Assembly: GCF_011043775.1 (NCBI RefSeq)
Contig: NZ_JAAKXY010000003.1
Location: 248,001 to 312,000 of the forward strand
Origin: Natronolimnobius sp. AArcel1
Lineage (GTDB): Archaea > Halobacteriota > Halobacteria > Halobacteriales > Natrialbaceae
DNA: 64,000 nt
Reading direction: 5' to 3'
Position 1 is the first letter of the stretch; the number at the start of each line of letters is the position of its first letter. A model generated the notes under the pieces. It was not told the origin of the DNA and made no database searches. It saw nothing but the letters and a program-made list of their open reading frames with translations. The position numbers and the translations under genes were made by a program. This document shows, one piece after another, positions 3,676 through 20,238 of this stretch.

Positions 3676-3834
3676 ATGCCAAAGGTTCAGCTCAAATCTA
3701 ACGGTCAGTACGTCGTCACAGTGGACAAGGGACTTGCAGACGCGATGGATCTCGCAGGAGCCGACGTCGAGTGGTCTGTCGCATCTCGAAACAAACTCGA
3801 ATTGCAGATCACATCGCGGGGTGACGATGAGTAA
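3676..3834 (+). CDS. Small AbrB/SpoVT-like DNA-binding protein
   Basis: A 52-residue protein (MPKVQLKSNGQYVVTVDKGL...). The pattern 'NGQYVVTVDKGLADAMDLAGADVEW' split over a short beta hairpin, helix and second strand is that of swapped-hairpin AbrB-type transition regulators. Such proteins are small dimeric DNA binders and often antitoxins or autorepressors. Its stop overlaps the start of the serine recombinase by eight bases, so the two are translated together. It probably controls the recombinase and itself through the palindrome just upstream. Confidence 0.7.
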   Translation: MPKVQLKSNGQYVVTVDKGLADAMDLAGADVEWSVASRNKLELQITSRGDDE

Positions 3835-4525
3835 GGCGCTCGCGTGGATTCGAAAATCTCGCGGATCTGACGACGACATCGGACTTGAAGAGCAACGTGA
3901 GGTCGTCACAAACCTCGCATACGAGCTCGCCGACGAGGTCGAGATGTTCGACCTGGGCGTCCACACCGGGTTCAGTTCACTCACTCGGGATGATGACTCT
4001 GACCTCCTCGATCAAAACGAGGATGTCCTCGACGTCGTCGAGCAACTTCGAAGCGGAGAGTACGACTATCTCGTCGCCTTCGACGACCGGCGTATCTGCC
4101 GAGATGGATACCTTACCATCATCACGTACGCCTGCAAGCAGGGAGATACGGAGATTGCGTACGTTGCCGACGTTGCAGAGGACGATTTGACTCACGACAT
4201 GCACCGGCTGTTCGAGCGAGTGACCAAACAGGAAGAGATCCGAAAGGCAAAGAGCGCACTCCAACGACGGCGAGAGAACGGGTACGACGAGGGACGACCA
4301 AAGTGGGGAACGACGTACGACGCCGACGGGGAATACCTCGTCCCGGATCCAGAGACGTTTCCCGATGTACTCACGGCTATCGAAATGGCGGAATCTGACG
4401 AGCCAGAATACTCGTACCGAGACATTGTCGGACGGACGTCGATCGAGTCAGTTGGGACACTGAAAAACATCCTCGACCGCCGTGACTGGTACCGAGAGTT
4501 GGCTATAGAACACGGGAATATCTGA
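3827..4525 (+). CDS. Serine recombinase (resolvase/invertase family)
   Basis: A 232-residue protein starting at ATG 3827 inside the end of the AbrB-like gene. The N-terminal ~120 residues form a resolvase domain: 'AWIRKSRG' with candidate nucleophile S11, and 'FDDRRICRDG' (residues 85-94) with the D-R-x(2)-R active-site cluster. The remaining ~110 residues include a helical arm ('EEIRKAKSALQRRRENG') and a short C-terminal DNA-binding region. Length is close to resolvases and far below large serine integrases. It cuts and rejoins DNA at specific sites. Its place at the edge of the defence island suggests a part in its mobility or maintenance (inference). Confidence 0.82.
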   Translation: MSKALAWIRKSRGSDDDIGLEEQREVVTNLAYELADEVEMFDLGVHTGFSSLTRDDDSDLLDQNEDVLDVVEQLRSGEYDYLVAFDDRRICRDGYLTIITYACKQGDTEIAYVADVAEDDLTHDMHRLFERVTKQEEIRKAKSALQRRRENGYDEGRPKWGTTYDADGEYLVPDPETFPDVLTAIEMAESDEPEYSYRDIVGRTSIESVGTLKNILDRRDWYRELAIEHGNI

Positions 4526-4603: not shown

Positions 4604-5869
4604 GTGGAAATAAATCATGTTGCATCGGTTTTGGAAACGGTTGAAAACCGAGTTCAGGTGCTCAATGAGTCAAAACGACCACCACGAACCTTCTTCGATG
4701 TGGCTGATGTTTCTCGTTCGGAATCTGCGTGGCAACACACGCTCGCGTATTTTCTGTCCCCCAATGAACCACATGGGTTTGGAGCGACTATCCTTGGAGC
4801 GTTCCTAAGATTAATTGAAGAACATTCTGAATCGACTTTCGAATTCTATGAGTACAATCTTGAGGACATCGAAATACAGGTCGAGGCCTCGGCCGATACT
4901 GGGCGTCCTGACATTGTTCTCTGGCTGGAGGAGATGTGGTTCCTATGCGTGGAAATCAAAGTCGATGCCCCAGAAACGGAGGATCAAACAGAGCGGTACA
5001 CTAACGCGTCTCGATTCGGTGAGCTGTGTACGGCATCTATTCCATCATCTGGCCACCACTTTGTGTATCTTGCTAGTCGGCATGCGAACGACCCTAAAGC
5101 AGACAAGTTCGTAACAATAACTTGGCAAGAGGTCGTCGAAGAGTTTTCCCAGCACTTCAATCCCGGTGTCACAGCGTATCCTGCTAGAAGCGTCGCACAA
5201 TTATACGATTTCGTTCACCACGTTAAGCAGTCACTCAATATGGTAAATGAACAAGGTCCGAATTCCGAGAAGGTTGAACTGGCGTTCGAACACAGTGAGA
5301 TGATTAATGAACTCACAGACGCTGCCGATCAGTTCATCAAAGAGTATCAGGCATCGTGGGACAGACGCTTCGAACAGGATCCACCAAGTGGCTGGACAGA
5401 CAAGTGGACGACCATTCGAAATGGGAACAAGTGGGGGCGCTTGATGAAGGCAGATTGGAGACTTCCTCAAAATCCAACTGGAGCTCCACAAAAGACCTCC
5501 GGATTTTCTGTTGCGATTTCAATTGACGTCAGGTTAGAAGATTTTGAACGAGGGGAAACGGAAGCTGTGTTCCGGGTTTACGGAGATAATGAGTATACTG
5601 AATGTTACTTGGAGCGATTTCACTCGGATGGGTTTCAGGACCAAATCCAACAACGAATCAAAGATACTCGGCTAACAGTCAATGAATCCAATGAACCGAG
5701 GGTACTCAGGTCAGTACATTCCTTCGAATTCAACGACGGCGAGGGGCATTTGGAGGCACTGAAGGAAGCCTTTCTAGAATATAATAAGGTCGTGCCTCAT
5801 CTTGAAGAACTATATTTTGAGGTTCAATCAGATATCAAAAACCCAGATCAGTTATTTGAGGATGACTGA
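4604..5869 (+). CDS. PD-(D/E)XK nuclease superfamily protein (PDDEXK_4-like)
   Basis: A 421-residue protein with GTG start at 4604; upstream ATGs run into stops. Residues ~25-210 carry a PD-(D/E)XK core: the opening 'SESAWQHTLAYFLSPNEPHG', then 'GRPDIVLWLEE' (D103) and 'FLCVEIKVDA' (E117, K119), then 'EDQTERYT'. This is the layout of the PDDEXK_4 (PF14281) family, found mainly in defence loci and lone restriction-like genes. The C-terminal half (~220-421) is not recognised and contains a W-rich segment and a beta-rich region. GC is clearly lower than in core genes, suggesting transfer. It leads the plus-strand run with the RecB-like nuclease and PLD-SNF2 helicase. Confidence 0.78.
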   Translation: MEINHVASVLETVENRVQVLNESKRPPRTFFDVADVSRSESAWQHTLAYFLSPNEPHGFGATILGAFLRLIEEHSESTFEFYEYNLEDIEIQVEASADTGRPDIVLWLEEMWFLCVEIKVDAPETEDQTERYTNASRFGELCTASIPSSGHHFVYLASRHANDPKADKFVTITWQEVVEEFSQHFNPGVTAYPARSVAQLYDFVHHVKQSLNMVNEQGPNSEKVELAFEHSEMINELTDAADQFIKEYQASWDRRFEQDPPSGWTDKWTTIRNGNKWGRLMKADWRLPQNPTGAPQKTSGFSVAISIDVRLEDFERGETEAVFRVYGDNEYTECYLERFHSDGFQDQIQQRIKDTRLTVNESNEPRVLRSVHSFEFNDGEGHLEALKEAFLEYNKVVPHLEELYFEVQSDIKNPDQLFEDD

Positions 5870-5931
5870 GTAGAAATAGCAATTTTCGAAATCCGATCGT
5901 CGAATGAGTCCGCACAAACTCTATTTAGCTG

Positions 5932-6684
5932 ATGAACCGCTCGATAAGGGAGATCAGGCTCTCACCGTCTGCCCTCACTGGACTAGAAGACGGAAGCATG
6001 GAGCTGACGGCAGACGACACTGAGCGGTGCATTCGACCAACCACGACGGAGAAAGCAGAGACAAGAGAGACGAGTGACCGATCACCCTCGGACGAACAGC
6101 CCGGCATCTCGGCAGCGGTCTTCGGACAGGCAGTACACCGACTCTGTGAGGTCCGACCCCCTCGCCAGACGTGGCGATCGTTTATCGAACAGGTGTTCTC
6201 AGAGGAACGATCGGTCGGTTCAGATGAGCCACTTCAGGCGAGTAGCGGTGATCTCGATTCGATCGAGGGTGCGGCCGAGTGTGCGATCAGGTTCATCGAG
6301 GATCTTCACGAGCGGAGTGAAATGCTGGCCACATACGACGAGTTCCCGATTGAGTTGACGTTTCCGAACGGAGAGCTCCAAGGGTACATCGACCACCTGG
6401 TCGTCACACCCGATCGGTACCACGTCGTCGATTACAAGACAGATCGAACGGGTGACAACGAATCCGTAGAAGAGTTCCTCGAACGACGTGCGAATCACCA
6501 TGAGCCGCAGGTGATGGCGTACGCAGCTTCACTGATGCAGGCCGATCCGGAGCGTGACGTATCGGTGACGTTGTTCTTTACCGATATCGATCGCCGATAT
6601 ACTTGGGGATCTAACGAGGTGGAAGATGCCTATGAAGTTACCAATAAGCGGATTCACTCGGCACTAATGTCTAAAAAGCATTAA
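5932..6684 (+). CDS. Stand-alone RecB/AddA-type nuclease domain
   Basis: A 250-residue protein matching only the C-terminal nuclease part of AddA/RecB-like helicase-nucleases. It starts with 'RLSPSAL', where this domain normally begins after the helicase. All expected active-site motifs are seen: G65-x3-H69 (GQAVH), D154 (GYIDHL), D167-Y-K169, and Q193-x3-Y197 (QVMAY). The helicase is missing, so it is either a free-standing nuclease or a fragment left after a rearrangement. It is richer in GC than the preceding gene. Only 16 bases separate it from the PLD-SNF2 helicase, so it may now work with that protein. Confidence 0.75.
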   Translation: MNRSIREIRLSPSALTGLEDGSMELTADDTERCIRPTTTEKAETRETSDRSPSDEQPGISAAVFGQAVHRLCEVRPPRQTWRSFIEQVFSEERSVGSDEPLQASSGDLDSIEGAAECAIRFIEDLHERSEMLATYDEFPIELTFPNGELQGYIDHLVVTPDRYHVVDYKTDRTGDNESVEEFLERRANHHEPQVMAYAASLMQADPERDVSVTLFFTDIDRRYTWGSNEVEDAYEVTNKRIHSALMSKKH

Positions 6685-6700
6685 GAGGCCAACCAGTCAT

Positions 6701-9700
6701 GTGACGATACACGACATGGTTTACCTGGATCCGTTGGTTGATAACGGGGAAATAAAGCTTGAGGAGATTCACCGCAGGCTACTTCCTGAAACCGAGGAAG
6801 TGAGGATTGCGACTGGATACTTCTATCTTTCCGGGTTCGACCTCCTTCGAGAGGATTTACAGAGTCTACTCGATCCATCTGAACACGAATACGCCCCTAT
6901 GCGGATTCTGATGGGCCGACAGACGGATCAGAAAACAGCTGATGAAATCACAGAGGGACAAAGCTTACGAGATCAATTCCGTGACGAGGTACGGGCCGAT
7001 ATCGCGGGCTTGAACCATGCCCAACTCGATCGGTTAGATCGACTCAAAGAGTTCATCGAGCAGGGCTATGTCGAGATACGTGTTCGAGCGCCCGAACAGG
7101 GTTACTTCCACGCGAAAGGGACGAGTTTCCGTCTCGCGCCCGAAAACCCAGAACTCCGGGATGGTGACACAGATCGCAGAGATTGTGCACTTGTCGTTGG
7201 CTCGTCTAACTTCACTGCCAGCGGACAACGGAATAACATTGAGCTGAATCTGACGACACAGGATCCCCACAAAGTCGAAGACTTCGAAGATTGGTACGAT
7301 AATCAGTGGGCAAACGCTGATGAGTTCAGTGAGGATCTCGTAGACATCATTGAAACGAGCGATCGATACCAGGAGTGGAAGGACCAACAAGAAGACGACC
7401 AAAGTGTAGACAGCGGTGTCGAATTCGGTCAGTATCTCGAACCGTTCGAGTTGTACAAATTACTCGCATATGATGCCCTAAGCGGCAATGTCTGTACGAG
7501 AGATAGCCCACTCTACTACTTCCAATCACTCGGCTATGAGAGCGCCAAAGAAAAGTTGTCCCAGTACAACGGGTGTATCATCTCCGATTCGGTTGGGTTG
7601 GGGAAGTCGTTCATCGGTGGTGAGTTGCTTCATGACTATCGCCAAGGAGGGGATCGCTGTCTCCTAATCGTCCCCGCAAACCTGACCGAGCAATGGATTG
7701 ATCTCCTCCAGGATCAGACCGACGAAGATGGAAACCCGTTCTTTGGGCTCCAAGTTGACGGAAAGCATCTCGATGTCATGTCGATCAGCAAGTTTCAGAA
7801 CCTCTCCTACGAGGAGGTTCAGGAACTCCGAAACGGTTACGATGTCGTTCTAATCGACGAGGCACATCGTTTCAGAAACTTCGGAAAGTGGCGTCCAAAT
7901 CCCGATCACGAGGATGATTACAAGGGAACGCGACGTCACGCAAATCTCCGACAGCTTCGCGGGAAGACGATGATTTTGTTGACGGCGACGCCGATTAACA
8001 ACTCTGCGACCGACCTGAAAAATCTCATCTCGCTGTTTACCGGTTCGGAAGAGCTACGAAACAAGGCGAGTCTCGACTTCAGCGCGTTCGACGAATATAT
8101 CGACTTAGCCGAGCAGCGAAAACGGATCGCAGCCGACAAAGAAGAAGCCTCCGAGGAGGAGAAACAACAACTAACGGATCAGCTCCAACGGCGCTCAAAG
8201 GAGATTTCCAAGATGCTGAACGAGGTGATGGTCCTCCGGACCCGAAAGCACGTCAAGGACGAAATCCTCGACGAGGAAGACTTCGAGATGAGCTTTAAAC
8301 CTCCACATCTTTCCAAGGAGGAGTATTCTCTCCCGCCTGCGTATCAACCGATCTATCGGATGCTTCCCGATGTTATGGATGCGCTCCACCTACCTCATAT
8401 TACAATCAGGAACCCGCAAGGTGGTGGGACACTGAAAGCGCTTTATAAGCTAAATCTACTCAAACGCCTGGAATCATCCACCTATGCGTTCGTCCAGTCG
8501 CTCGAAACCCTCCACGAGAGTGAGCGAGCACTCCTCGGCCTACTTGACTCCTTACCCGAAAACGAAGACATTGATGCACTCCATGACTTCCAAGCTGACA
8601 ACGATGGAGCAACACTTAATGACTTCGTCGAAGGAAAAGATGCCGCAGAAGACCTCGAACAGACGTTAGAAGAGTTCGGATTTGATGCGGGAGTTGTACG
8701 AGCCGATGGCGGAGACGAAGACACAGAGCTTGCCGACGCGACCATAGGCGAGGTTAAAACGTACATTCGGGAGGATCTGACCCTTTTGGCGTATTTCCTT
8801 TCACAGTTCATCGGTGATGTCGCCCATGATACTGGGGCAGTCAGCGATTATGCGGTTGAAACGCGACAGTGGTTGCATGACCGCGACGTCGGTGTCATTC
8901 CGAATGTTTCTGAGGAGGAACTCAACCCTATTCTCTACCCCAACAGTGATTTGAGTGACGTCGATGGGGCAACCCGTGAGTTTTACGAAGCGGTTTTCAG
9001 CCTTCGAGAGTTCCGTGATCCGAAGATCGAACGACTTGGTGAGATCCTCGCCGGATACGACAAGAAAGTACTCGTCTTTACGCAGTACCGAGCGACCGCG
9101 GAATACGTCTATCGGACGCTCCGTAATGATCCCGGGACACCACTCACCGACGCGAATAGCGCCGTCGTCAAGGGCGGCGACGAAAACAAGCAGGAGATCA
9201 TCAAGCGATTTGCACCGGAAGCATCGGGATATCAGCGAACGCTCGCAGAATCCGACGAAAGCGAACTCCAATACGTCATTGCGACCGACACGCTCAGTGA
9301 AGGGGTTAACCTTCAGGATGTCAACGTTGTCGTCAACTACGATCTGCCGTGGAATCCAATGCGGATCGTACAACGTGTTGGTCGCGTGGATCGGATCGGG
9401 AGTACGGCGGACAAGTACGTGCACAATTTCTACCCCGACGGCGACATCGAAGCTGCAATTAAGCTCCTTGAACGTCTTCAGGCAAAGATCAACGACATCG
9501 CATTGATCGTCGGCAAAGAGAACAATATCCTTGATCCAAACGAGGATCAGGTTCTCGAACGAGCTGGCGTCGAAACCGAGAAGACGATCGGTGAGCTCGA
9601 AGTCGAGGAGATCGAACGCTCCTTGCGAGAGTCGCGTGCAGTAGACGACATCAACGAACTCGACGACGCGAGCAAGAATCCACTTCTCCGACACGCTGGC

Positions 9701-10510
9701 AGCGATGAGAACGCTGCTTACGAGCGATATCTGCTGAAAAACGAACTCAACGAAGAGTACGAATTGGAAGCAGATGACTTCGAGTTCGCCGAAGGCTACT
9801 TCGAGGACGATCCAGACGATCGAGATCTCTTGTACACAAATGTCACAGACATGGATGCAGGGCCGCCAGCGGGCGTGTTCGGGTTAGCCCACCTCTGGTT
9901 CGACGAGGAGGACGAATCGCCACTCGGACGAGTACAACGAGCGTTCTACCACAGACGGTTCGGAGGCGACGTCAAGGAGACTCACGTCCGTATGCTACGG
10001 TTCCAACCCGATACCGACGGAGAGCCAATTCGCAAGAATGCGGAGACCTCACGTGTACTCGAAAATCGAGAAGCGATCGAAGATCTCATCGAGAAACGGT
10101 TAGAGTCGATCCGAGAAAGTCAGGTCGAAGGTGCATTCCTGCACGGCGGAGATCACTCCAAAGAGCAGGAAACGTTGATCAGCTTCTGTAGACAGTATAT
10201 CGAACCCCGATTCCAGGACGAACCAACGTCGGGAGATTACGACAGTGCCAGCGATCGTGCGAAGGCTCTACGAAGCCGGCTGGGAGAGGTTGGACTCAAG
10301 AACACAGATGAGGATCAGGTTCTTCGAGACCGTTTCCGCCATAATGATCAATACGAGACGCTACCGGACTGGCCGGTAGAGGAATTCCTCAATGCGCTGG
10401 AGGAGTTCCTTGACGAATATGTGGCTGAATCGACCGAGTATCAGGAGACGTTAGTCGGCGAGAGCGAGGTTCGGGCTCGGTTGGTCTGCTGGGGAGTCGT
10501 GGGCTCATGA
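6701..10510 (+). CDS. SNF2-family helicase with N-terminal phospholipase D-like nuclease domain
   Basis: A 1269-residue protein; GTG 6701 is the first start and ATG 6716 is an alternative. Residues ~25-190 form a PLD-like domain with one HKD motif: 'YFHAKG' (~133) and 'GSSNFTASGQ' (~166). The SNF2 ATPase follows: Walker A-like 'SDSVGLGKS' (~296), 'LIDEAHRFRN' (~385), 'LLTATPINN' (~425), a long helical insertion (~450-780), then helicase C with 'KVLVFTQYRAT' (~790) and 'RVGRVDRIGS' (~892). The last ~350 residues are unknown and helical. It would use ATP to move along DNA and may cut it. Comparable PLD-SNF2 proteins occur in restriction and defence loci; it resembles DISARM DrmD only in the SNF2 part, and DrmA/DrmB are absent. 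Confidence 0.88.
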   Translation: MTIHDMVYLDPLVDNGEIKLEEIHRRLLPETEEVRIATGYFYLSGFDLLREDLQSLLDPSEHEYAPMRILMGRQTDQKTADEITEGQSLRDQFRDEVRADIAGLNHAQLDRLDRLKEFIEQGYVEIRVRAPEQGYFHAKGTSFRLAPENPELRDGDTDRRDCALVVGSSNFTASGQRNNIELNLTTQDPHKVEDFEDWYDNQWANADEFSEDLVDIIETSDRYQEWKDQQEDDQSVDSGVEFGQYLEPFELYKLLAYDALSGNVCTRDSPLYYFQSLGYESAKEKLSQYNGCIISDSVGLGKSFIGGELLHDYRQGGDRCLLIVPANLTEQWIDLLQDQTDEDGNPFFGLQVDGKHLDVMSISKFQNLSYEEVQELRNGYDVVLIDEAHRFRNFGKWRPNPDHEDDYKGTRRHANLRQLRGKTMILLTATPINNSATDLKNLISLFTGSEELRNKASLDFSAFDEYIDLAEQRKRIAADKEEASEEEKQQLTDQLQRRSKEISKMLNEVMVLRTRKHVKDEILDEEDFEMSFKPPHLSKEEYSLPPAYQPIYRMLPDVMDALHLPHITIRNPQGGGTLKALYKLNLLKRLESSTYAFVQSLETLHESERALLGLLDSLPENEDIDALHDFQADNDGATLNDFVEGKDAAEDLEQTLEEFGFDAGVVRADGGDEDTELADATIGEVKTYIREDLTLLAYFLSQFIGDVAHDTGAVSDYAVETRQWLHDRDVGVIPNVSEEELNPILYPNSDLSDVDGATREFYEAVFSLREFRDPKIERLGEILAGYDKKVLVFTQYRATAEYVYRTLRNDPGTPLTDANSAVVKGGDENKQEIIKRFAPEASGYQRTLAESDESELQYVIATDTLSEGVNLQDVNVVVNYDLPWNPMRIVQRVGRVDRIGSTADKYVHNFYPDGDIEAAIKLLERLQAKINDIALIVGKENNILDPNEDQVLERAGVETEKTIGELEVEEIERSLRESRAVDDINELDDASKNPLLRHAGSDENAAYERYLLKNELNEEYELEADDFEFAEGYFEDDPDDRDLLYTNVTDMDAGPPAGVFGLAHLWFDEEDESPLGRVQRAFYHRRFGGDVKETHVRMLRFQPDTDGEPIRKNAETSRVLENREAIEDLIEKRLESIRESQVEGAFLHGGDHSKEQETLISFCRQYIEPRFQDEPTSGDYDSASDRAKALRSRLGEVGLKNTDEDQVLRDRFRHNDQYETLPDWPVEEFLNALEEFLDEYVAESTEYQETLVGESEVRARLVCWGVVGS

Positions 10511-10564
10511 ATAAATAGCCGATAATAGTCGGTCATATAATCCATGGCATGGGCAGAAGCGTTG

Positions 10565-10795
10565 TTATAGATCTGAAGCGGGTCGGAGGTCTCTCCATCG
10601 GAGGTGTTCGGTTGTGCCATCGTCAATCTGGACGTTAAACAGATACGAGTCGCGTGAATCCCCTGTTTCTTGGCCAGCGTCATCCTCGAATATTTCGACG
10701 ATTGTACCGTGTTTTCGATGGAGTCGTTCATGATCGGGATCGTCCTTATCCGGAATATCGACTCGAATCCGATCTCCTACCTCAAATCGTCTCAT
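10565..10795 (-). CDS. Small SH3-like fold protein
   Basis: A 76-residue protein starting at ATG 10795 (MRRFEVGDRIRVDIPD). The pattern 'VGDRIRVDIPD...HGTIVEIFED...YLFNVQIDDG...LRWRDLRP' has the regular strand spacing of small SH3-like barrels of the KOW/L21e or Tudor kind that bind nucleic acid or protein. It is the last gene of the minus-strand run after the NucS-like gene. No function can be named; a role as an accessory subunit of the locus is inferred from position. Confidence 0.65.
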   Translation of the reverse strand: MRRFEVGDRIRVDIPDKDDPDHERLHRKHGTIVEIFEDDAGQETGDSRDSYLFNVQIDDGTTEHLRWRDLRPASDL

Positions 10796-10906
10796 TGGTT
10801 GCTCTTACTGCTACTCTACCCTGTCAGTTACGGCTAATACAGGTCAACAGGAGTTGCGTGACTCTTTCGATAACACGCCAGAGAAGACTGTTCGACACCC
10901 GTAGAT

Positions 10907-11941
10907 CTACCAATCAATATCTCCCACTTCCGTTTTGCGTAACTCTGTAAGTGTCATGTCGTATTTTGTATGCCGCCAGTATGGGTATCCGTTTACGTTG
11001 AACTCACGGCCAGTAGTCTCTTCGAGAACCGTCTGTGCGAGTTTCGTAAATGAATACTCAGCGCCGTTTTCGAGCCACTCTACGTTATCACTTCGTCCCG
11101 TCTTCCCAGTGATTCGTCCGCGCCAGAAATCGTCATCTGGATCAAAACGATGGTCGGCATCATCAGGAACACTCCCTTCATCAAACACTACGATATCACC
11201 TTCTTCGACGATCCCTGCTTCCAGAAGGACGGTAATCGCTCGTTCAGCGCGGGTTGACGACCGGCTTTGTTGTCGCTCCTTCTCCCGACGTTTCGCCATG
11301 TACTCTTCAGCTTCTGGAATCGGAAGCATACGGCGAGAACTCACATAGACGTCCTCACCTTCCGTACGATGCGCTTCGAGTTCTACACAGGTGATGTCCA
11401 TGCCGAACTCTCGTTCGAGCCAGATAACTGGCGTAGTAATTTCGGGCCCGAAGCTACCAGCTGCGAGGAGAATCCGAGGCCTATCGTCGAGTGCAAACTC
11501 AGCATAGCCGTCACCAGTTATGGATGCAACCTCGTCACCGAGAAATTCGGCAAACCGTTCCCCGACATCTTCCGGGGTGAGTTGTTCGTGATCGCCGCGT
11601 TCGTTCCAAAAGGTTCGATAATCCTGCTGGAGTTCCTCAGCGCTGATCGTGGAACAGTAACTGGCGTATTTGATCGCCTGTAGATCAGTCGTGTTGTCTG
11701 CTCTGTCTCGCTTAAGTTCGACGACGACCAGTTTCCCCTCTGGATCAAGTGCAAGCACGTCAGGCCGCTCAGTGGTCCTGTCGAACTTGGCGTACTGGGA
11801 CGCGACGACGAGCAGTTCTTCTCCAAGCATAGACGGGTTCTGGATGATCCACTCCTCGATGTTTGCCTCCGCGACATCGATGGCTTCAAAGCTAGTGCGG
11901 GAAAGAGAACGAACGTCGTCACCGTCGATATGAAATACCAT
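10907..11941 (-). CDS. NucS/DUF91-like endonuclease with C-terminal RAMA-like domain
   Basis: A 344-residue protein. The N-terminal ~170 residues have the NucS/DUF91 PD-(D/E)XK pattern: 'EANIEEWIIQNPSMLGEELLV' split by a loop, 'RPDVLALDPEGKLVVVELKRD' split at the turn (D at ~60, E-x-K at ~76-78), then a Q-x2-KYA helix. The C-terminal ~110 residues ('LLEAGIVEEGDIVVF ... NGYPYWRHTKYDMTLTELR') look like the RAMA domain, found with restriction enzymes and adenine methylases and thought to read modified DNA. The gene follows the methyltransferase by 38 bases, so it is a good candidate for a restriction subunit that senses its methylation. Confidence 0.75.
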   Translation of the reverse strand: MVFHIDGDDVRSLSRTSFEAIDVAEANIEEWIIQNPSMLGEELLVVASQYAKFDRTTERPDVLALDPEGKLVVVELKRDRADNTTDLQAIKYASYCSTISAEELQQDYRTFWNERGDHEQLTPEDVGERFAEFLGDEVASITGDGYAEFALDDRPRILLAAGSFGPEITTPVIWLEREFGMDITCVELEAHRTEGEDVYVSSRRMLPIPEAEEYMAKRREKERQQSRSSTRAERAITVLLEAGIVEEGDIVVFDEGSVPDDADHRFDPDDDFWRGRITGKTGRSDNVEWLENGAEYSFTKLAQTVLEETTGREFNVNGYPYWRHTKYDMTLTELRKTEVGDIDW

Positions 11942-11979
11942 TACCGCAGAGTTCTCAATAAGACGTAATCAAATTACGG

Positions 11980-14900
11980 CTACTCACATGGCCCGATATC
12001 GGTCAATTCGTCGTACTTGTCTAGCACCATCTCGAAATACGGCTCATCCATCAACCGTGGGTTCTCAACTCGGTGGAAATCGTTGAGGACAAACTCCGTA
12101 TCTTCACGATTGAGCCCATAGGCATGGAATGCAGCGGCGTCAATTTCGGCTTGTGAGCGACGACGAGCCTGCTCGTCTACAGCTGGCTTGATGCCGTTTA
12201 GCCGATCTCGCATCTCTTCGAAATCTTCACCGTAACAATTGAGGCGAGCTGCTCGTTCTGAGATGTAATGGAACCATTCAGTGCCTTTGGTGAGACGAGG
12301 AATTTGACTCTCCTCAAACTTGTACTTGACAATGTGAGTCTCAATTTTCCGCCTCATTAGGTAATCAAACGGGATGCTATTAAGCAGGCCGAGTGCTGCA
12401 AATAGCTCTCTATCAGAGAAGATTCTTTTATAGGCTGAATGAAGACTGTCCGATTGTAAATCATTTTCATCTGGTTCAATGTAGTATGGCCGAAACGATT
12501 GTAGCGTTTCTAAACATGCCGTTCCGGGAGGAATCACCGCTGCAACGAGTGTACGCTCATTCGTCGAATTTGTAACGTTCCGATATCCAATTCGATATTC
12601 CGTGAAGTCAGGGAGTAAATCACTAGGTTTTAGCCCCCTTCCCCGCTTTTCTTTCAGAAGATCATTCACAAACTGCTTCTGCGATTTGCTAGTTTCCGGT
12701 CCACCGAAGTTGTTGTAAATAGCTTTTTTGAGCCGTCCCTTGTTGAATGCCTTCTGTCGGATTCTTGCCCTAGCACTCTTATCCGGATCCTCAGATTCTA
12801 TACTCCAGTATCTCGGCCCATCTAACTCTTTATCAATCTTATTATCGTGTAGATACTGGTGGATGTTCGCACCTCCATATATCGGATAATCTCCTTCATT
12901 TTCGGTTTCAACAAACCTTCCCTTATCTGTAGGTTCGTGAAGTTCCTTAGTTACTAAGTCACCCCACCAGGCGTGTTCCTCTTGATTGCCTACTGGTGGG
13001 TGATCTAAGATTTTCTTAAGCACATTTGCTTGCTTTTGAGATGTGACTGAAGGGAATATTCCGGCACCCGGAGAAAAGTTCTCAAGAACTGACCTAGGTA
13101 TTTCTACAGATTCGCTGTCAATATATTTGAGTATCTCAGTATCTGTATGGCCAAAGGTTCCAATAACAGACTCTGTTCTGCCAGATGATTTGAAAGTTAT
13201 TATTCCAAATTTGTACTGGCCGTGTATCTGCTCAAAAATACCTTTGTTTTCAAATCCTACAACTGATTCTAATGAATTCTCGTCAAGAAGATGTCGTCGT
13301 AGATCCTTCGCAATTGCTCCTGTGAATACAAAACCTGGTAAAATTAGGCTAACATAGCTCTCACCAGAAACGATATTAAACGTCCTTTCAAGGAAGAGAG
13401 CAGATAGATCATTTTCACTTGCGATAGTCTGGCCAGCGATTTTGGGTGTTTGTAACTGGTATTCTTGACTGTTGTTGAAAAAGTCCGCTCGCCACTCTAG
13501 ATTTAGTTTATACTCTTCCCAATCATCATGCACCTCCTCACTTTCTAATAATTGTTTCTGTATCTCATCCTTCTGGTCAGCATTATATGTCCGAAATGTC
13601 TCATCATATTTTGAGAAGAAGTCATCTCGATTAGGGCTCAAAACCTCCCATGGAGGGTTTCCGATTATTATGTCAAATCCTCCGTCCCTGTATACAGGTG
13701 CAAACTCCAATACCCAATGAAAAGGGCAAAAATCTTTAATTTCATCCAAGGAGATCTCTGTTATTCCAGAGTCATAGAATTGTTCGAGTACCTTCTTATC
13801 CAATTCTTCACTATGTGACTCAATTCTTGCTTCAGCTAACTTCCGGGCATTTGTCGCCTCTTTTGCACTCGTAGAACCCTGATGACGCTCAATCGCTTCA
13901 ATTACATCCTCATACATTTCCTTAACACCGGTTCCTGTGCCGCCGCCGTAGTTCGTTAACGCTGCATCGCCATCCGCATTTGCTACTTCAACGATCTCGG
14001 TGAATCCGATCAGTGAGTTCCCTTGGCGAATGTTGAAGTCGATATTTGGAAGCGGTTCAACCTCATTCGGTTCGTCCTCTATATCTGCAACCATTGAAAG
14101 CCACAGTCGAAGTTTGCAAATTTCGACAGCACCGTCGTCAATGTCTACGCCATATAGGTTGTTCAGAATAATCTCTCGCTTAGCGTAGAGCGTCTTACTC
14201 CCCTTGCGACTCTGTATATCTTGTAGTTCATCTCGCGTCCGACTCGATAATTCCCAGCTACGGCCCTCCTGCTCCAGTTCTTCAAAGAATTCCAAACACT
14301 GAAGATAAATATCGAGTAACACATCTTGAGCTGCCAGTAGGAATGCTCCGCTACCTACTGCTGGGTCAAGCACTCGTGCATCTTGAAGAATATCGAAATA
14401 GAGCGTTTCTACGTGATCAGTCTGTACGTCGGCTGTTGGCCCTTGCTGAGTGATTGTCCCTCCGTCAGCTACAACTTCATCACCAGTCGTCTTTGCATCG
14501 AGACTGCTCAATGCGAAGATGTCGTCAATCTCTTCGTAGTCGGCATCAACGGCTTCGTTTAATTGATCCAAGAGATAGGGATGAATAGAACGGCGGGCCA
14601 TGAACCCGGTGATCTCTTCGGGCGTGTAGTACGCGCCCATCTCCTTCTGGTTCACTGTCTGCTCGAAGATGTGACCCAAGACCGCAGGGGAGAGATTCTT
14701 CGGATCGACGATATCCAGCCGCTCATCAACGTTCCAGTTCCACTCCGAGAGGAAGTCCAGAATCCGACCGAACAACTCGTTCGTCTCCTCGGCTGACTCA
14801 CCCAGCTTAGCGTTTGGAAATTCCTCTTCGACGGGATTCGTGGTGAACAACCCACCGTTCAGATATGGTAGACTGCCGAATTCCGGATCTCGCTTCCCTT

Positions 14901-15612
14901 CAGCGAGAAGATCGAAGAACAGCGGATCGTAGAACTCCTCATACACATCCTCATCCTCGCCAGCGACCCGTTTGTGATGTTCGTGTAAGTACTCGGGATT
15001 CCGATCGAGGAGGCGCTTCTCCTGGATGAAGTAGAGAAAGATCATCCGATCGAGCGTAACTTGGACATATCGCTGTTTAGCGTCGCCTCGATCGTCTGGG
15101 ACGCCGCTTACTTCTTGGACGAGTTCCGTCCGAAGCTTCTCGAAGTCCTCGTAGAACTCCTTGACGATTTGCTGTGTGTCGTAGAGATCTCCATAGATAG
15201 CAGCGGTAGAACCGTATTCGATTTCGTTGAGTTTCTGGAGAATGGTATTCTTCTCACCGCTATCGCTAGTGAACTGCGACTTGCTGAACGAGAGCTTCTG
15301 GTGTTTGATCTGGCCGTGTTGCTGGCCAAAGGTTCGAACTCGCGTGATGAACGTGAATTCCTCGAAATCGTTTGTCGCAACGAGATTCGTATGCCGGCGG
15401 TCGGTGTCTTCTGGTTTGAAATCCGTTGCAGATTCTCCGAGTCCAGCCCGTACAAGGACGATGAACTCGTCATCAGCAAGTTGGAGTACTAACTCGTGAT
15501 CGTCACCGAGATTGGGGCGAGGTTTTAGCCCGCGTTTTTCGAAGGAGGCTGCAATATCCTGTAGAGAGTCCCAGCTGGCAACATCGGACGCGGTGATCTG
15601 CTGGAGAGTCAT
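11980..15612 (-). CDS. Eco57I/PglX-like type IIG adenine-specific DNA methyltransferase
   Basis: A 1210-residue protein. The N-terminal ~300 residues form the helical region found in type IIG and BREX PglX-like enzymes ('LDRMIFLYFIQEKRLLDR', 'LPYLNGGLF'). The methylase core follows: 'GAYYTPEEIT' (~327), SAM-binding motif I 'VLDPAVGSGAFLLAA' (~413), and catalytic motif IV 'IIIGNPPW' (~645), meaning N6-adenine methylation. Residues ~650-1100 are the target-recognition region. Coding DNA at about 12390-14000 is much AT-richer than the N-terminal part, hinting that the recognition segment came from another source. There is no clear N-terminal nuclease motif, so cutting probably rests with the neighbouring nucleases. 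Confidence 0.9.
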   Translation of the reverse strand: MTLQQITASDVASWDSLQDIAASFEKRGLKPRPNLGDDHELVLQLADDEFIVLVRAGLGESATDFKPEDTDRRHTNLVATNDFEEFTFITRVRTFGQQHGQIKHQKLSFSKSQFTSDSGEKNTILQKLNEIEYGSTAAIYGDLYDTQQIVKEFYEDFEKLRTELVQEVSGVPDDRGDAKQRYVQVTLDRMIFLYFIQEKRLLDRNPEYLHEHHKRVAGEDEDVYEEFYDPLFFDLLAEGKRDPEFGSLPYLNGGLFTTNPVEEEFPNAKLGESAEETNELFGRILDFLSEWNWNVDERLDIVDPKNLSPAVLGHIFEQTVNQKEMGAYYTPEEITGFMARRSIHPYLLDQLNEAVDADYEEIDDIFALSSLDAKTTGDEVVADGGTITQQGPTADVQTDHVETLYFDILQDARVLDPAVGSGAFLLAAQDVLLDIYLQCLEFFEELEQEGRSWELSSRTRDELQDIQSRKGSKTLYAKREIILNNLYGVDIDDGAVEICKLRLWLSMVADIEDEPNEVEPLPNIDFNIRQGNSLIGFTEIVEVANADGDAALTNYGGGTGTGVKEMYEDVIEAIERHQGSTSAKEATNARKLAEARIESHSEELDKKVLEQFYDSGITEISLDEIKDFCPFHWVLEFAPVYRDGGFDIIIGNPPWEVLSPNRDDFFSKYDETFRTYNADQKDEIQKQLLESEEVHDDWEEYKLNLEWRADFFNNSQEYQLQTPKIAGQTIASENDLSALFLERTFNIVSGESYVSLILPGFVFTGAIAKDLRRHLLDENSLESVVGFENKGIFEQIHGQYKFGIITFKSSGRTESVIGTFGHTDTEILKYIDSESVEIPRSVLENFSPGAGIFPSVTSQKQANVLKKILDHPPVGNQEEHAWWGDLVTKELHEPTDKGRFVETENEGDYPIYGGANIHQYLHDNKIDKELDGPRYWSIESEDPDKSARARIRQKAFNKGRLKKAIYNNFGGPETSKSQKQFVNDLLKEKRGRGLKPSDLLPDFTEYRIGYRNVTNSTNERTLVAAVIPPGTACLETLQSFRPYYIEPDENDLQSDSLHSAYKRIFSDRELFAALGLLNSIPFDYLMRRKIETHIVKYKFEESQIPRLTKGTEWFHYISERAARLNCYGEDFEEMRDRLNGIKPAVDEQARRRSQAEIDAAAFHAYGLNREDTEFVLNDFHRVENPRLMDEPYFEMVLDKYDELTDIGPCE

Positions 15613-15725
15613 GGCGAATCGGAGACACTCATTGCATAAGAAATGTATGGTAACCTGACTACAATGACTACTCTCTCTGTAGACTATTTTTTGCTCCTAT
15701 CCGGTAAAATACCCTCTCCCGTTAG

Positions 15726-16850
15726 TTACGCTGGATCTGTATCCGGTTCTTTCGAAACACCGATGCCATATTCATCAAGCTGGCGCTGCTTACCAATTTC
15801 AGCAACCACACGTTCCTCGCATTCGTCCCTCAATTCGTCCTTCATATCCTCGATTCGCCACTCAACCCATTTGTCCTCTAAGACCCTTTCAAGATCGTCT
15901 TTGGCTGTATAGTTCGAGACAATTTTAAACTCAGCACGATCATCTTCCCACTCAGACAGGAAGTTAATCCGTTTTCCAGCCTCGATCAACTCGTTAACAA
16001 TCTCTGAGATCCGTTCGTCGGTATAATTCAATGCGCTGTTAGAAACGTACTCCTCTATATCCTCCCGGTCAATACACGGGTGTCGGTCTTCTACCCGGCG
16101 TGATTGCACGACAACGCGCAATCGATCAACGATGATCGATGTTGGCAAGACGTCCGCTTGTCCAAAACTCGTCGTCACCCGATCTAATTCTCCATTCAAC
16201 GACGCCACATCGTGTGTATGTCTTCGATCAAGCTCTTCGAGCATCGCATCCGGGTCTTCGGCTTCGAGGTTGTCAGGAAACGATGTTGGCCTAGCTTGAC
16301 GGATCCACAGGGTGTCTGAATGCGCATCCACCACCCACGTGATGAACTCCGCGCCTGTCTCGATAATCTCTTTAGCGATCTTATCACCGTGGTTGACGTA
16401 CGTCACCACCACAAATTCCATGTGGGCAATCTCACTACCGAGATACTCCTCCTCAATGTACCCCTTGTGCTCCTTGGCTACCTCTTTGCGTTCCTGTAGT
16501 TGATTCACTACGGTTGAAGCACTGGCCGGAATCGATGATTTCGCTTCACCGAAAATCACGCTCCCATCGAGGTTCCAAAGTAGAAAATCGAAGTTCGGGA
16601 CGCCAAGTTCCTCAAGTGGTTCAGCGGTGATGAATTTGTATCCAGCGGGTTCTCCCTGCGCGAATGGGAAGATTGAGTAACTGATGAGTTTTCGATGATG
16701 GCGCTGGACGTCAATTTCCTCACGGAGGTTTTCGCGCTTGGATTGCTCCGGGAATTCTCGAAGCTTATGATGGATGCACTTACCGTACAGTCCACGGTAT
16801 TTCGTTTCTTGACCCTCCAGCACCGATTCGGGAGGATCAACGTTTGTCAT
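15726..16850 (-). CDS. Putative PD-(D/E)XK nuclease with C-terminal winged-helix region
   Basis: A 374-residue protein. The core 'PNFDFLLWNLDG' (D88) and 'VIFGEAKSS' (E102, K104) followed by a long helix 'STVVNQLQERKEVAKEH' is typical of PD-(D/E)XK nucleases. 'HMEFVVVTYVN' is the next core strand. Residues ~270-330 look like a winged helix ('IDREDIEEYVSNSALNYTDERISEI' split after the first helix). Its ATG lies one base after the stop of the 365-residue gene, so the pair is translated together. No known system with this pair is recognised; a nuclease plus partner defence module is inferred. Confidence 0.65.
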   Translation of the reverse strand: MTNVDPPESVLEGQETKYRGLYGKCIHHKLREFPEQSKRENLREEIDVQRHHRKLISYSIFPFAQGEPAGYKFITAEPLEELGVPNFDFLLWNLDGSVIFGEAKSSIPASASTVVNQLQERKEVAKEHKGYIEEEYLGSEIAHMEFVVVTYVNHGDKIAKEIIETGAEFITWVVDAHSDTLWIRQARPTSFPDNLEAEDPDAMLEELDRRHTHDVASLNGELDRVTTSFGQADVLPTSIIVDRLRVVVQSRRVEDRHPCIDREDIEEYVSNSALNYTDERISEIVNELIEAGKRINFLSEWEDDRAEFKIVSNYTAKDDLERVLEDKWVEWRIEDMKDELRDECEERVVAEIGKQRQLDEYGIGVSKEPDTDPA

Positions 16851-16851
16851 A

Positions 16852-17949
16852 TTAGGCCGCAGTCTGTGATTCGTAAAGTTTCATCTTCGCGCCACCGTCC
16901 AGCATCTGAATTACGGCTAGGTAAAACTCGACGAGAGACGGGAACGAACAGTTATGTTTTGGAACGATTCGCATCGATTCTTCGGTTGCACTAACGTTGA
17001 ACAGTGATCCTCTATTCTCGTCTGTTACCTGCGCGGAGAAGTCGAGTGAGCCGGCTTGTTTCGTGACATCGGTGAAACTAAAATTCAGCTCATCACTATT
17101 TTTGGTGCCTTTGATGAAACTCTCTGCCTGCATCAACGTCACTGGGTGATCAAAATCTATCTCACCAGAACTCACCTCCGGCACTTGGATTTTCAAGTTT
17201 CCCGGCTCCACCTCCCGCTTCTCGAACTTGATCTGGTTCGCTACATCGAGCAATTCGAGCACGTTCACGACAACTTCACTCAGCAGTTCGAACAGGATGT
17301 TGAAGCTCTCTTGATTGACGGTCTCTAAAGTGAATTTGCCAGAGGTGTCAATCCTGATAGAGACGTTTTCGTGTTCGTACTGGATACGGGTTGGGACGAC
17401 ACCGTATTCATCGCGGAAGTCGTCAAGTCGGTCGCGGCCGTCCAATCCTTTGTATTCAATCTCACGATTGACATCTGGTCGGGTTCGAGCATCTGCCAGA
17501 CTTGGGACTCGTTTTGATTTGAACTCGGAAATCCGCATATCCTCGTAAGTACTGAGGACGATCTCGTTCATCGTCTGAAAGTCCTCAGTCATAATCGGCA
17601 TCGGCGACAGGCAGTCACTGTGTTCCGAGACGGGACGTAAGGCCTGTCGAATTGCTTCCTCGGTTTCAGCAGTAACAACCATCTGGAGGTCGTCCTTGTA
17701 TTCTCCGACGTAGAATTTGGCGGGTTGCTCAGCACCTCTTCGGTTTCTATACTCCCCAACGAACTTCGTGATACCTCCTAGTTCTTCAATTTCGTAGTGT
17801 TCGTCGAGGTATTCTCGCCAACCGTCGTCAGAAAGATAGAGGAATGATTTGATGCGTTGACCGTGGTACCCCTCTAGGACGGACTCAGGCGAGTCAAAGA
17901 TGACTCGGCAGAATTCCTTGAGATTGTATTGTCCTTCGGGTATATGCAT
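16852..17949 (-). CDS. Uncharacterised protein paired with the nuclease gene
   Basis: A 365-residue protein from ATG 17949 (MHIPEGQYNLKEF). The first ~110 residues are alpha/beta with 'VGEYRNRRGAEQPAKFYVGEY'. A middle part (~110-200) contains 'MTEDFQTMNEIVLSTYEDMRI'. The last ~150 residues are beta-rich and end in a helix 'FPSLVEFYLAVIQMLDGG'. No known domain, membrane segment or catalytic motif is recognised. It is the first gene of the minus-strand run and is coupled to the PD-(D/E)XK nuclease with one base between them. It could be a sensor, inhibitor or DNA-binding partner of that nuclease; this is context only. Confidence 0.6.
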   Translation of the reverse strand: MHIPEGQYNLKEFCRVIFDSPESVLEGYHGQRIKSFLYLSDDGWREYLDEHYEIEELGGITKFVGEYRNRRGAEQPAKFYVGEYKDDLQMVVTAETEEAIRQALRPVSEHSDCLSPMPIMTEDFQTMNEIVLSTYEDMRISEFKSKRVPSLADARTRPDVNREIEYKGLDGRDRLDDFRDEYGVVPTRIQYEHENVSIRIDTSGKFTLETVNQESFNILFELLSEVVVNVLELLDVANQIKFEKREVEPGNLKIQVPEVSSGEIDFDHPVTLMQAESFIKGTKNSDELNFSFTDVTKQAGSLDFSAQVTDENRGSLFNVSATEESMRIVPKHNCSFPSLVEFYLAVIQMLDGGAKMKLYESQTAA

Positions 17950-18072: not shown

Positions 18073-20238
18073 TCAACTAAGGGCCTCTAAATGCCGCTCG
18101 TCCTCTTCCGTAAGCAATTGGACGCTGTACTCGTCTTCGAGCTGTTTGATCTGTCGGAAACACTCCGCGGCTCGTTCTTCCTCCCCGCGTTCGAGATAGT
18201 GGGTCCCCTGCTTTCGTAGCACCTTCGCAGCTCCCGACTTGCCCTCGTACCAGGGAAGCAGTTCGAAGTACCGTTTCTTGGCTTGATCGAGTTGGTCCTG
18301 CATGGCCTCAGGGTCGTCGTCTTCGAGCGCGTTCGCTAACGCCCAGTGAGCGTCTGCTAATGACTGTGCGACGTCGTTTCGTTCCGGCTCGGTCTCGGCG
18401 GTGTCGTACGCTTCGCGGAGAGACTTGATAGTCTCAATGAGGTGTTGTGGATCGTCACGTTCGTCCACATCCTCTCGCTTGGCTTCTCTTTGGTCGTTAG
18501 TTTCCTCCCAGACAATCTCGCCATCTAGGTCGATAGCGTACGACGGATCTGCGCCCGTTTCCGTACTGAACTGGATCTCCCATTCACTGCCTTCCGTTCG
18601 AAGCGTAACCTGTCTCGCCTTCTCATGGCGTAACTCGTGCTTCGTCCGTCGGTCACCGGACTCCAAGTCAAATACGTAGACGCTGTCGTCCGGTGGATAC
18701 GTCGTTACGACCGCATACACGCCGTCCGGCGTAACGTCGCAGTCGGTGATGTCGGCGTTGAAGTAGTGCGTGAGGGGCTGTGTGCCGTCCGGCTCAAAGA
18801 CGAGAAGTTTCGCCGAATGTTCGTCCGGGTCGAGCGCGTCGATAACGATGGTTCGTCCGGAATCGGCGACTGACGCGGTCGTCGGCTCCGCGATCGTCTC
18901 TGTAATCCGTAACCCGGTATCGTCGTAGACGAACACCCGCGCGTCGTCGGGATCGGTACCACGACCGTACGCCACAAGCCACTCGCCGTTCGGCGACCGC
19001 TCCACTTGGCACGTGTAGCGTTCCTCCTCGTAGCCAATAACGCGAGCGTGATCTCGATCGCCGGAATCTTCTCCTGATGACCGAGGTTCCGACGCTGACC
19101 CATCGACATCGGCGTTTGACTCCGACTCGTCCGATGCTTCCGTGTGCTGCTCCTCAGTACTGGACTGAGACGTATCGATCGACGACGCTTGCTCACCAGA
19201 CGCTGAATCCATCTCGTCTTTGACCGGGACGGATCGACGTCGCCAGAGATAGACGAGGCCGGGAACGACAGCCACGAACCAAAGCAGCGACGCGAGAACG
19301 TAGGCCCACGTGTACTTCGGCCAGTCGGTGACGTCGCCGATCTCACGCGCATCGAGGAACATCGCCGCCGGAAGCGCGACCCACGTCGCCAGAAACAGTA
19401 GACCCCAGAGTGCCTCCGGGATCGCCACCACGCTGAAGAAGACGACGACCCAGCCGATCGTCGCCCCCATTACCACCTTATGCCAGTGCGTGGAAGGCGG
19501 ACTACCCATCTGAGTCGGTTGTTGTGCCGACACATTCGACTCCGACGACGGCGCTCCTGCTTCGGACGAGGTTTCCGGTCGATCGGCCGATTGCTCCGCT
19601 GACTGCGAGGTGTCCTCCTCGGGAACGGCTTCGACGAAGTCGAGATACTCAACGACCAGGTCGAGGGCGTCGTGTTCGAGGACAAGTTGGACGAGCTCGT
19701 CTCCGTTGATGAGTTTGACGTTCAGTTGGTCGGCGAGTTCCTTCGCCTGGCGACTGTAGCCATTAGTCGTGACGAGCAACACCTTATCGACGCCGTGGTA
19801 CTGATGACGCAGGCTCGCGTACTGTTGCACCTCGGGTGACCCGACGGTCGTGTTCGGACCGTATCGCTTCGCCTGGATTAGCAGCGTCTGTTCGTAAGGT
19901 GTTGCCTTTTCGGCGGTGACGTCTACACCCTTGTCCGCGGCAGCCGTCGAGACTTCCGTCTCCCACCCCATCCGTTCCCAGAGGTCGCCGATGAAGTGCT
20001 CGAAGTCGTACGCATCCATTCGTTGGAGGACGGCTTTGAGCTGCGCCGGTGATTCGATCTGACCGCCGTCAGCCGGAAAGTCCTGCGCATTTCCGACTGA
20101 ATGCCGCCCTTCTTCAATTACCTTTCCTGGCTCGACCGGCTGAGAGTTGGACGTCGAATCCGAACCCGAGTCGCGCATCGATTTGCGGATTAACCGATAC
20201 ACTTCGCGGTAGAGGAAGTAGCGAAGGAACCGTTTCAT
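18073..20238 (-). CDS. Membrane-anchored Mrr-type restriction endonuclease with repeat-rich C-terminus
   Basis: A 721-residue protein; ATG 20238 (MKRFLRYFLY) is preferred to an upstream start because a basic amphipathic segment follows it. Residues ~65-200 are an Mrr/restriction endonuclease-like domain: 'MDAYDFEHFIGDLWERMGWE', 'DKGVDVTAE' (D106) and 'LLIQAKRYG' (Q122-x-K124). A low-complexity linker leads to three membrane helices (~255-273, 276-296, 310-332). After an acidic Ser/Glu-rich linker, ~400-590 looks like a beta-propeller ('SPNGEWLVAYGRG', 'TPDGVYAVVTTY') and ~610-720 like TPR helices. Mrr enzymes cut modified DNA; the membrane anchor and propeller/TPR part are unusual and may hold it at the envelope. 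Confidence 0.8.
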   Translation of the reverse strand: MKRFLRYFLYREVYRLIRKSMRDSGSDSTSNSQPVEPGKVIEEGRHSVGNAQDFPADGGQIESPAQLKAVLQRMDAYDFEHFIGDLWERMGWETEVSTAAADKGVDVTAEKATPYEQTLLIQAKRYGPNTTVGSPEVQQYASLRHQYHGVDKVLLVTTNGYSRQAKELADQLNVKLINGDELVQLVLEHDALDLVVEYLDFVEAVPEEDTSQSAEQSADRPETSSEAGAPSSESNVSAQQPTQMGSPPSTHWHKVVMGATIGWVVVFFSVVAIPEALWGLLFLATWVALPAAMFLDAREIGDVTDWPKYTWAYVLASLLWFVAVVPGLVYLWRRRSVPVKDEMDSASGEQASSIDTSQSSTEEQHTEASDESESNADVDGSASEPRSSGEDSGDRDHARVIGYEEERYTCQVERSPNGEWLVAYGRGTDPDDARVFVYDDTGLRITETIAEPTTASVADSGRTIVIDALDPDEHSAKLLVFEPDGTQPLTHYFNADITDCDVTPDGVYAVVTTYPPDDSVYVFDLESGDRRTKHELRHEKARQVTLRTEGSEWEIQFSTETGADPSYAIDLDGEIVWEETNDQREAKREDVDERDDPQHLIETIKSLREAYDTAETEPERNDVAQSLADAHWALANALEDDDPEAMQDQLDQAKKRYFELLPWYEGKSGAAKVLRKQGTHYLERGEEERAAECFRQIKQLEDEYSVQLLTEEDERHLEALS

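Follow-up and report, generated by a model that had tools for sequence, protein, structure and literature searches.

In BREX systems, methylation and defence both take their specificity from PglX (PMC11341690). BR (BREX-related) type 2 systems, proposed to act by restriction and modification, contain an HKD nuclease-Swi2/Snf2 fusion and an N6-adenine methyltransferase (MTase) together with a DUF499 ATPase and DUF3780 (PMC12839542). ARMADA systems, which also occur in archaea, are defined by a YprA-like helicase and additionally carry a BrxHII/RapA-like helicase and a PglX-like MTase (PMC12458937). Here, we analyzed a stretch of 64,000 nucleotides from Natronolimnobius sp. AArcel1 (contig NZ_JAAKXY010000003.1, positions 248,001 to 312,000; hereafter the window), in which a PLD-SNF2 helicase and a PglX-like MTase are encoded among several other genes at window positions 4604-17949. 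Our analysis suggests that these two genes probably form the core of a two-gene, restriction-modification-like defence system, with a switch of MTase specificity in part of the relatives. In its more specific form, which we favour on balance, the proposal is that of an unnamed haloarchaeal two-component restriction system, some members of which would switch specificity through a programmed inversion that involves one half of the MTase gene and is driven by a recombinase of the type known from halovirus tail fibres, with target and self-mark switching together.

The helicase and the methyltransferase form a conserved pair

In the window, a plus-strand run of genes (4604-5869, 5932-6684 and 6701-10510) converges on a minus-strand run that extends from 17949 down to 10565. 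The last gene of the plus-strand run (6701-10510) encodes a protein of 1269 residues with an N-terminal PLD (HxK) domain and a SNF2/RapA-like helicase (Pfam PLDc_2, SNF2 and Helicase_C), which is predicted to be the restriction motor and nuclease; a start at 6716 (M6) fits the homologues better than the start at 6701. The second core gene (11980-15612, minus strand) encodes a PglX-like N6-adenine MTase of 1210 residues (Pfam Eco57I, E 7.9e-25), the predicted self-marking and specificity subunit. The MTase consists of an N-terminal module (residues 1-436; 14305-15612, minus strand) that contains the S-adenosylmethionine (SAM) motif I, and a C-terminal half (residues 437-1210; 11980-14304, minus strand) that contains the NPPW motif and a hypervariable target-recognition region.

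Homologues of the helicase were gathered from 84,980 species genomes and from 391 genomes of the window's class, of which 44 were positive, and their neighbourhoods were fetched and reduced to 63 non-redundant loci. The MTase, whole or in part, was found to adjoin the helicase in 62 of the 63, and the sole remaining locus (L039) stops at a contig edge. The two genes are convergent in 55 loci; the exceptions are one nanohaloarchaeon, L068, L144-L146 and two Leptospiraceae. A reverse search with the MTase N-terminal module (threshold E < 1e-60) revealed the module in 37 of 382 genomes of the class, all but two of which were also in the helicase list. These two were G019 (54% identity) and G261 (68% identity), and no helicase was present in the 20 kb fetched around the MTase of G261.

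The two proteins have also diverged together. Distances between the helicases correlated closely with distances between the MTase N-terminal modules (Mantel r 0.94, reached in 0 of 2000 permutations), whereas the correlation with distances over MTase residues 680-1060 was only 0.18. Such a contrast would be expected from a helicase that docks on the constant part of an MTase whose recognition region is exchanged. As evident from the nearest relative of the window locus (L022), identity amounts to 90% in the helicase and the N-terminal module and to 46% in MTase residues 680-1060.

The catalytic motifs of both proteins are intact. In the helicase, the PLD residues H137, K139, GSSN (167-170) and E181 were invariant among 24 homologues, and the helicase motifs GLGKS (at 299) and DEAH (at 386) were present. 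The top PADLOC match was the HKD+Snf2 protein C3a139 (E 4.8e-83), which we take to be a CRISPR-accessory candidate. The best profile neighbours, C3a139, DrmD, HmaA and BrxH, are all defence-associated helicases, and the closest solved structure by sequence was RapA. In the MTase, motif I (DPAVGSG, at residue 416) precedes NPPW (at 652), both being conserved in 39 homologues, and this order corresponds to that of gamma-type N6-adenine MTases, to which the protein is assigned by its motifs. A Foldseek search with the MTase model gave PglX/BrxX (8q56, TM 0.37) as the top match, followed by CamA and MmeI.

The sequence-only reading, made before the searches reported here, had called the MTase a type IIG enzyme, that is, one with a nuclease of its own. 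Over columns 30-115, only T87 and R91 were invariant in the 39 homologues and no D, E or K was, so that no nuclease active site is visible in the N-terminus. We therefore dismissed the type IIG assignment, which the conservation of the first 115 residues does not bear out.

Several further occurrences of the pair and its MTase family were observed. The genome of the window holds a second complete helicase-MTase pair (G000:C10:16692-24160, L023); the 32.6-kb contig that bears it also has a ParA-like gene. The helicase of this pair clusters with the second of two subfamilies that carry the switch described below, yet the locus has a single cassette. A third MTase, 51% related (G000:C3:208470-210641, L033), lies some 40 kb before the window begins, with no helicase within the 20 kb fetched; the MTase family exists also without PLD-SNF2. 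In L144, L145 and L146, two full tandem MTases (60-63% and 43-46% identity) flank the helicase, with all genes on one strand. The pair is also present in a nanohaloarchaeon metagenome-assembled genome (MAG; L062, 51-53%), where the MTase lies upstream in tandem. Bacterial relatives were confined to two Leptospiraceae contigs (L070/L071) at 31-36% identity. A locus labelled as a Nitriliruptoria MAG (L064) was taken to be a probable mis-binned haloarchaeal contig, given its 71% identity, and not as evidence for bacterial spread.

Comparison with described defence systems

The pair would work like a restriction-modification system and shows similarity both to BR type 2 and to the DrmD-DrmMI half of DISARM, yet the partners that define each described system are missing. 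Membership in BREX, BR, DISARM and ARMADA was ruled out on this ground. As in BR type 2, an HKD nuclease is fused to an Snf2 helicase and accompanied by an N6-adenine MTase. In contrast, the BR MTase carries DUF1156 and the BR locus contains DUF499, neither of which was detected with the pair: the window MTase gave no DUF1156 match at E <= 1, and DUF499 (PF04465), which occurs in 13 of the 44 helicase-carrying genomes, was never near the helicase. DUF3780 gave no match among the window proteins in a general Pfam search, no separate search for it having been made.

The likeness to DISARM class 1 lies in the pairing of an SNF2 helicase with an adenine MTase and in significant matches to the DrmD and DrmMI profiles. 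The differences are that the genes for DrmA, DrmB and DrmC are absent from the window and that the helicase here has an N-terminal PLD nuclease. Among eight window proteins searched with DISARM profiles, only DrmD-like and DrmMI-like similarity was found, and the DrmA model matched the helicase region only. As for BREX, the fold and motif layout of the MTase are nearest to PglX/BrxX, and some annotators label the cassettes 'BREX-1 PglX', but the MTase scored 72 bits with the NCBIfam BREX-1 PglX model against a cut-off of 500. In the 44 genomes, PglZ (PF08665) was never found within 100 kb of a helicase locus in those cases in which both share a contig, and the window proteins gave no match to any other BREX component. 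The pair shares with ARMADA a BrxHII/RapA-like helicase and a PglX-like MTase, and the window locus contains no second helicase that could be the YprA-like one. PLD and helicase domains also occur in one chain in the PLD-helicase anti-phage proteins of NCBIfam NF042964, with which the window helicase scored 145 bits against a cut-off of 1100.

The sequence-only reading was supported in so far as the helicase and the MTase form a conserved unit for which the profile searches returned no matching defined system, and in that DrmA/DrmB and PglZ, which it had noted as missing, were not found with the pair.

An invertible methyltransferase cassette in related loci

In at least 15 loci, we found two different MTase C-terminal halves facing each other around one N-terminal half. 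L047 has its second C-terminal half at the far end of the contig, and in L120 the switch locus is broken by insertions. Most of these loci carry perfect inverted repeats of 38-80 bp at the junction of the two halves; in the Halorussus aquaticus copies (L049 and L060), the 56-bp repeat arms differ at two positions. The join follows SAM motif I (residue 416) and precedes the catalytic NPPW (residue 652). The C-terminal half is the exchangeable cassette, and the N-terminal module inverts together with its upstream region. The proximal and distal cassettes of one locus are approximately 53% identical, and cassettes in the same position across genera of the first subfamily are 92-98% identical.

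The inversion is directly visible in a comparison of L122, on plasmid pHAR02 of Halorubrum salinarum, with L124 of Halorubrum salipaludis. The two are collinear over 20 kb with 98% identity, except for the segment 12123-13589, which comprises the N-terminal half and approximately 160 bp upstream of it. This segment is reversed, showing 99.5% identity as the reverse complement and 29% directly, and the breakpoints lie at a perfect 54-bp inverted repeat. Both orientations were seen in this and four other pairs of loci, and both switch states recur among the 15 loci, with opposite states, for example, in Halorubrum salinarum RHB-C, where the proximal cassette is on, and Natronomonas gomsonensis KCTC 4088, where the distal one is. 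In addition, one strain of Halobaculum saliterrae holds two copies of the switch locus (L046 and L050) in opposite states.

In the six loci tested, the silent cassettes contained no stops and had dN/dS values of 0.03-0.15 whether silent or active copies were compared, which indicates that function is maintained in the silent copies. Two draft contigs stop precisely at the final repeat base, another stops where the opposite arm has its outer end, and four further contigs begin or stop at a cassette edge. These breaks are suggestive of cultures containing both orientations, to which repeat length or assembler settings could contribute.

A tyrosine recombinase of approximately 223 residues is encoded about 53 bp past the distal cassette, in convergent orientation. 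It was present in 14 of the 14 switch loci with sequence there and in none of 36 single-cassette loci (Fisher 1e-12), and its motif HGLR...GW...Y is conserved. Among the 382 genomes, all 16 recombinase homologues of at least 73% identity lay in genomes with this system, including loci split between contigs. The best matches in phage records were Int1 of phiH1, HCTV-5, ChaoS9 and phiCh1 (40-45% identity over about 97%). In phiH1 and phiCh1, the Int1 gene is contained in the segment whose inversion switches the tail fibres (PMC6210493). The two arrangements share a homologous tyrosine recombinase and an inversion that selects which of two gene versions is expressed. They differ in that the viral switch acts on a structural gene with the recombinase within the segment, whereas here a predicted restriction gene of the host is affected and the recombinase lies outside. 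Because of this linkage and homology, the recombinase is the likely agent of the inversion.

Inverting bacterial type I restriction-modification systems (hsdS, PMC7394358) likewise have inverted repeats, silent alternative specificity cassettes and a locus-encoded recombinase. They are bacterial and exchange the target-recognition domains of a separate S subunit, whereas here the exchanged part is half of a single-chain MTase, with the catalytic NPPW in it, and it is the constant half that moves. Our search of the open-access literature found inverting bacterial type I systems and viral tail-fibre inversion, and no archaeal restriction switch of this type; nor did it turn up a report of specificity switching by inversion for an archaeal defence system or for a PglX-like single-chain MTase.

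Relatives of the recombinase were also observed in other settings. Homologues of 62-65% identity lie beside a different PglX-like MTase family without PLD-SNF2 in four loci (L174, L176, L177 and L178, in G170, G085, G255 and G367). In L174 and L177 a diverged MTase copy is present on the opposite strand, and switching may extend to this second family. L189 (G026:C4:33700-53699) contains a further recombinase of this family (40%), flanked by two copies, in opposite orientation, of a repeat-containing gene that resembles halovirus tail-fibre genes; the locus carries 57-bp inverted repeats and looks like a proviral tail-fibre switch.

Proposed mechanism and alternative explanations

The simplest model is that the MTase marks self DNA and directs the PLD-SNF2 nuclease, since PglX, a specificity factor, is the nearest fold and the PLD and helicase motifs are invariant. 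The PglX-like MTase would read a specific sequence through its variable C-terminal region and methylate an adenine there, so that host DNA is marked. The PLD-SNF2 protein would dock on the MTase at the latter's constant N-terminal part. At an unmarked site located by the MTase, the SNF2 motor would travel along the DNA, which would be cut by the PLD (HxK) domain. The motor would thus stay constant, with specificity residing in the MTase. In the relatives with two cassettes, the tyrosine recombinase would flip the N-terminal half and its upstream region between the inverted repeats, fusing it to either C-terminal half, and the self-mark and the restriction target should change together. The window copy is a fixed, single-cassette version, with the NucS-like protein as a putative accessory nuclease.

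Should this model be correct, the pair would offer a compact two-gene relative of BREX and DISARM for mechanistic work, and the switch would be a predicted cause of mixed methylomes in clonal haloarchaeal cultures. Host and virus would then rely on related invertases, the host for its restriction specificity and the virus for its tail fibres, and the defence switch would mirror that of the virus itself.

A number of points weigh against the model. We know of no methylation motif for any member, and the model does not account for the survival of a cell after a switch, when the new sites are unmethylated. The global TM-score of the MTase model against PglX is low, and the AlphaFold model of the helicase is poor (mean pLDDT 54.5), so that the PLD geometry and the C-terminal domains could not be read from it. 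The window copy is a fixed, single-cassette, non-switching member: a second cassette, inverted repeats and the recombinase were looked for in the window and not found, and no recombinase homologue was found in its genome. Finally, no recombination site common to the two switch subfamilies was found, their inverted repeats lying at different codons.

Four other explanations were weighed against restriction by a switchable pair. The MTase might be mainly an epigenetic regulator (a phasevarion), with PLD-SNF2 remodelling or silencing DNA without cutting it and the switch serving gene regulation. Specificity switching by inversion does control expression in bacterial type I systems (PMC7394358), and RapA as the closest solved helicase would suit this role. 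We nevertheless consider it unlikely, in view of the invariant HxK and GSSN residues of the PLD domain, the defence-associated helicases that head the profile matches, and the position of the loci among other nucleases and on plasmids. The plasmid copies, including ten named plasmid records (107-312 kb) that match the first switch subfamily, could instead point to a selfish module that mainly stabilises plasmids through addiction by restriction, with defence as a by-product. This is quite unlikely in our estimate: many copies, L057 and L061 among them, reside on chromosomes or large contigs, and a switch of specificity is needless for addiction.

It is also conceivable that host homologous recombination at the repeats produces the inversions and that the recombinase is a passenger. 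Coding repeats of 54-80 bp could recombine without a dedicated enzyme, their differing codon positions in the two subfamilies would fit such an origin, and a type I specificity locus of S. pneumoniae is reported to recombine independently of all its known site-specific recombinases (PMC6620402). Against this, the recombinase is perfectly linked to the two-cassette layout, has the conserved HGLR...GW...Y motif and is homologous to the Int1 of an invertible tail-fibre segment, and we regard a passenger role as decidedly unlikely. The last explanation is that of the sequence-only reading, which had joined all genes of 4604-17949 into one new multi-nuclease defence system with up to four nucleases, in which a RAMA domain reads the mark. 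The genes are indeed contiguous and tightly spaced within each run, and the NucS-like gene does recur with the core. However, the two upstream nuclease genes (4604-5869 and 5932-6684) were beside the pair in none of the 62 other core loci, the genes at 15726-17949, including the supposed nuclease at 15726-16850, belong to a module of their own that mostly occurs where the core is absent, and the RAMA similarity is below its cut-off. A single system of this extent is therefore very improbable, and neither the upstream nucleases nor the one at 15726-16850 can be counted among its parts.

Neighbouring genes

All genes named in the sequence-only reading were present in the window with intact frames, and its assignments as PDDEXK_4-like, RecB-type, PLD-SNF2, NucS-like and Eco57I/PglX-like were supported by family searches. 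The NucS_C-like PD-(D/E)XK nuclease (10907-11941, minus strand, 344 residues, NucS_C E 1.6e-5) lies directly downstream of the MTase. This gene occurs in 10 loci, in each of them in the slot that separates helicase and MTase, and never in a two-cassette locus; in L137 and L022 it is interrupted by a stop or frameshift. The same slot is elsewhere filled by other genes, including those for an HNH protein and a DUF4268 protein. The NucS-like gene is a real, recurrent but optional third partner of the core, and of the helicase-MTase-NucS/RAMA set that had been proposed for a neighbourhood count, the pair held together while the third gene came and went. NucS_C was found in all eight homologues scanned. 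The RAMA-like domain that had been read at its C-terminus was recovered as a weak similarity (E 0.029 in the window protein and 0.0041 in the best homologue), but in none of the homologues tested did it reach the Pfam cut-off.

The SH3-like protein that had been noted corresponds to an open reading frame (ORF) of 76 residues (10565-10795, minus strand). It is a frequent companion, lying near the core at 27 other loci, and also occurs in genomes without the core and near other methyltransferases. On the plus strand, the PDDEXK_4 (PDC-S26-like) nuclease (4604-5869, E 1.5e-15) is a neighbour outside the conserved system. The RecB/AddA-like PDDEXK_1 nuclease of 250 residues (5932-6684, plus strand, E 5.6e-10) is private to the window locus; its gene is separated from the helicase frame by 16 bp, and the two are possibly co-transcribed in the window.

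The remaining minus-strand genes encode proteins of 374 (15726-16850) and 365 (16852-17949) residues. The latter had been listed as unknown and has no family match. For the former, the proposed PD-(D/E)XK fold has a D...EAK motif, seen by eye, in its favour, but no family match. In a census of 194 genomes, a homologue of the 15726-16850 gene was found in 11, with a homologue of its partner directly adjacent in all 11. Beyond the genome of the window, only G203 has both this module and the core, on the same contig and 22 kb apart. The genes at 15726-17949 are an independent two-gene module, separate from the core, and a candidate uncatalogued defence pair. Adjoining this module is a gene for a 741-residue protein (18073-20298, minus strand) with an Mrr-type restriction endonuclease domain (E 9.5e-29) and probable membrane segments. 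On the other side of the locus, a serine-recombinase-like ORF (3734-4525, plus strand) gave no Pfam match at E 0.1, and similar genes flank nine other core loci.

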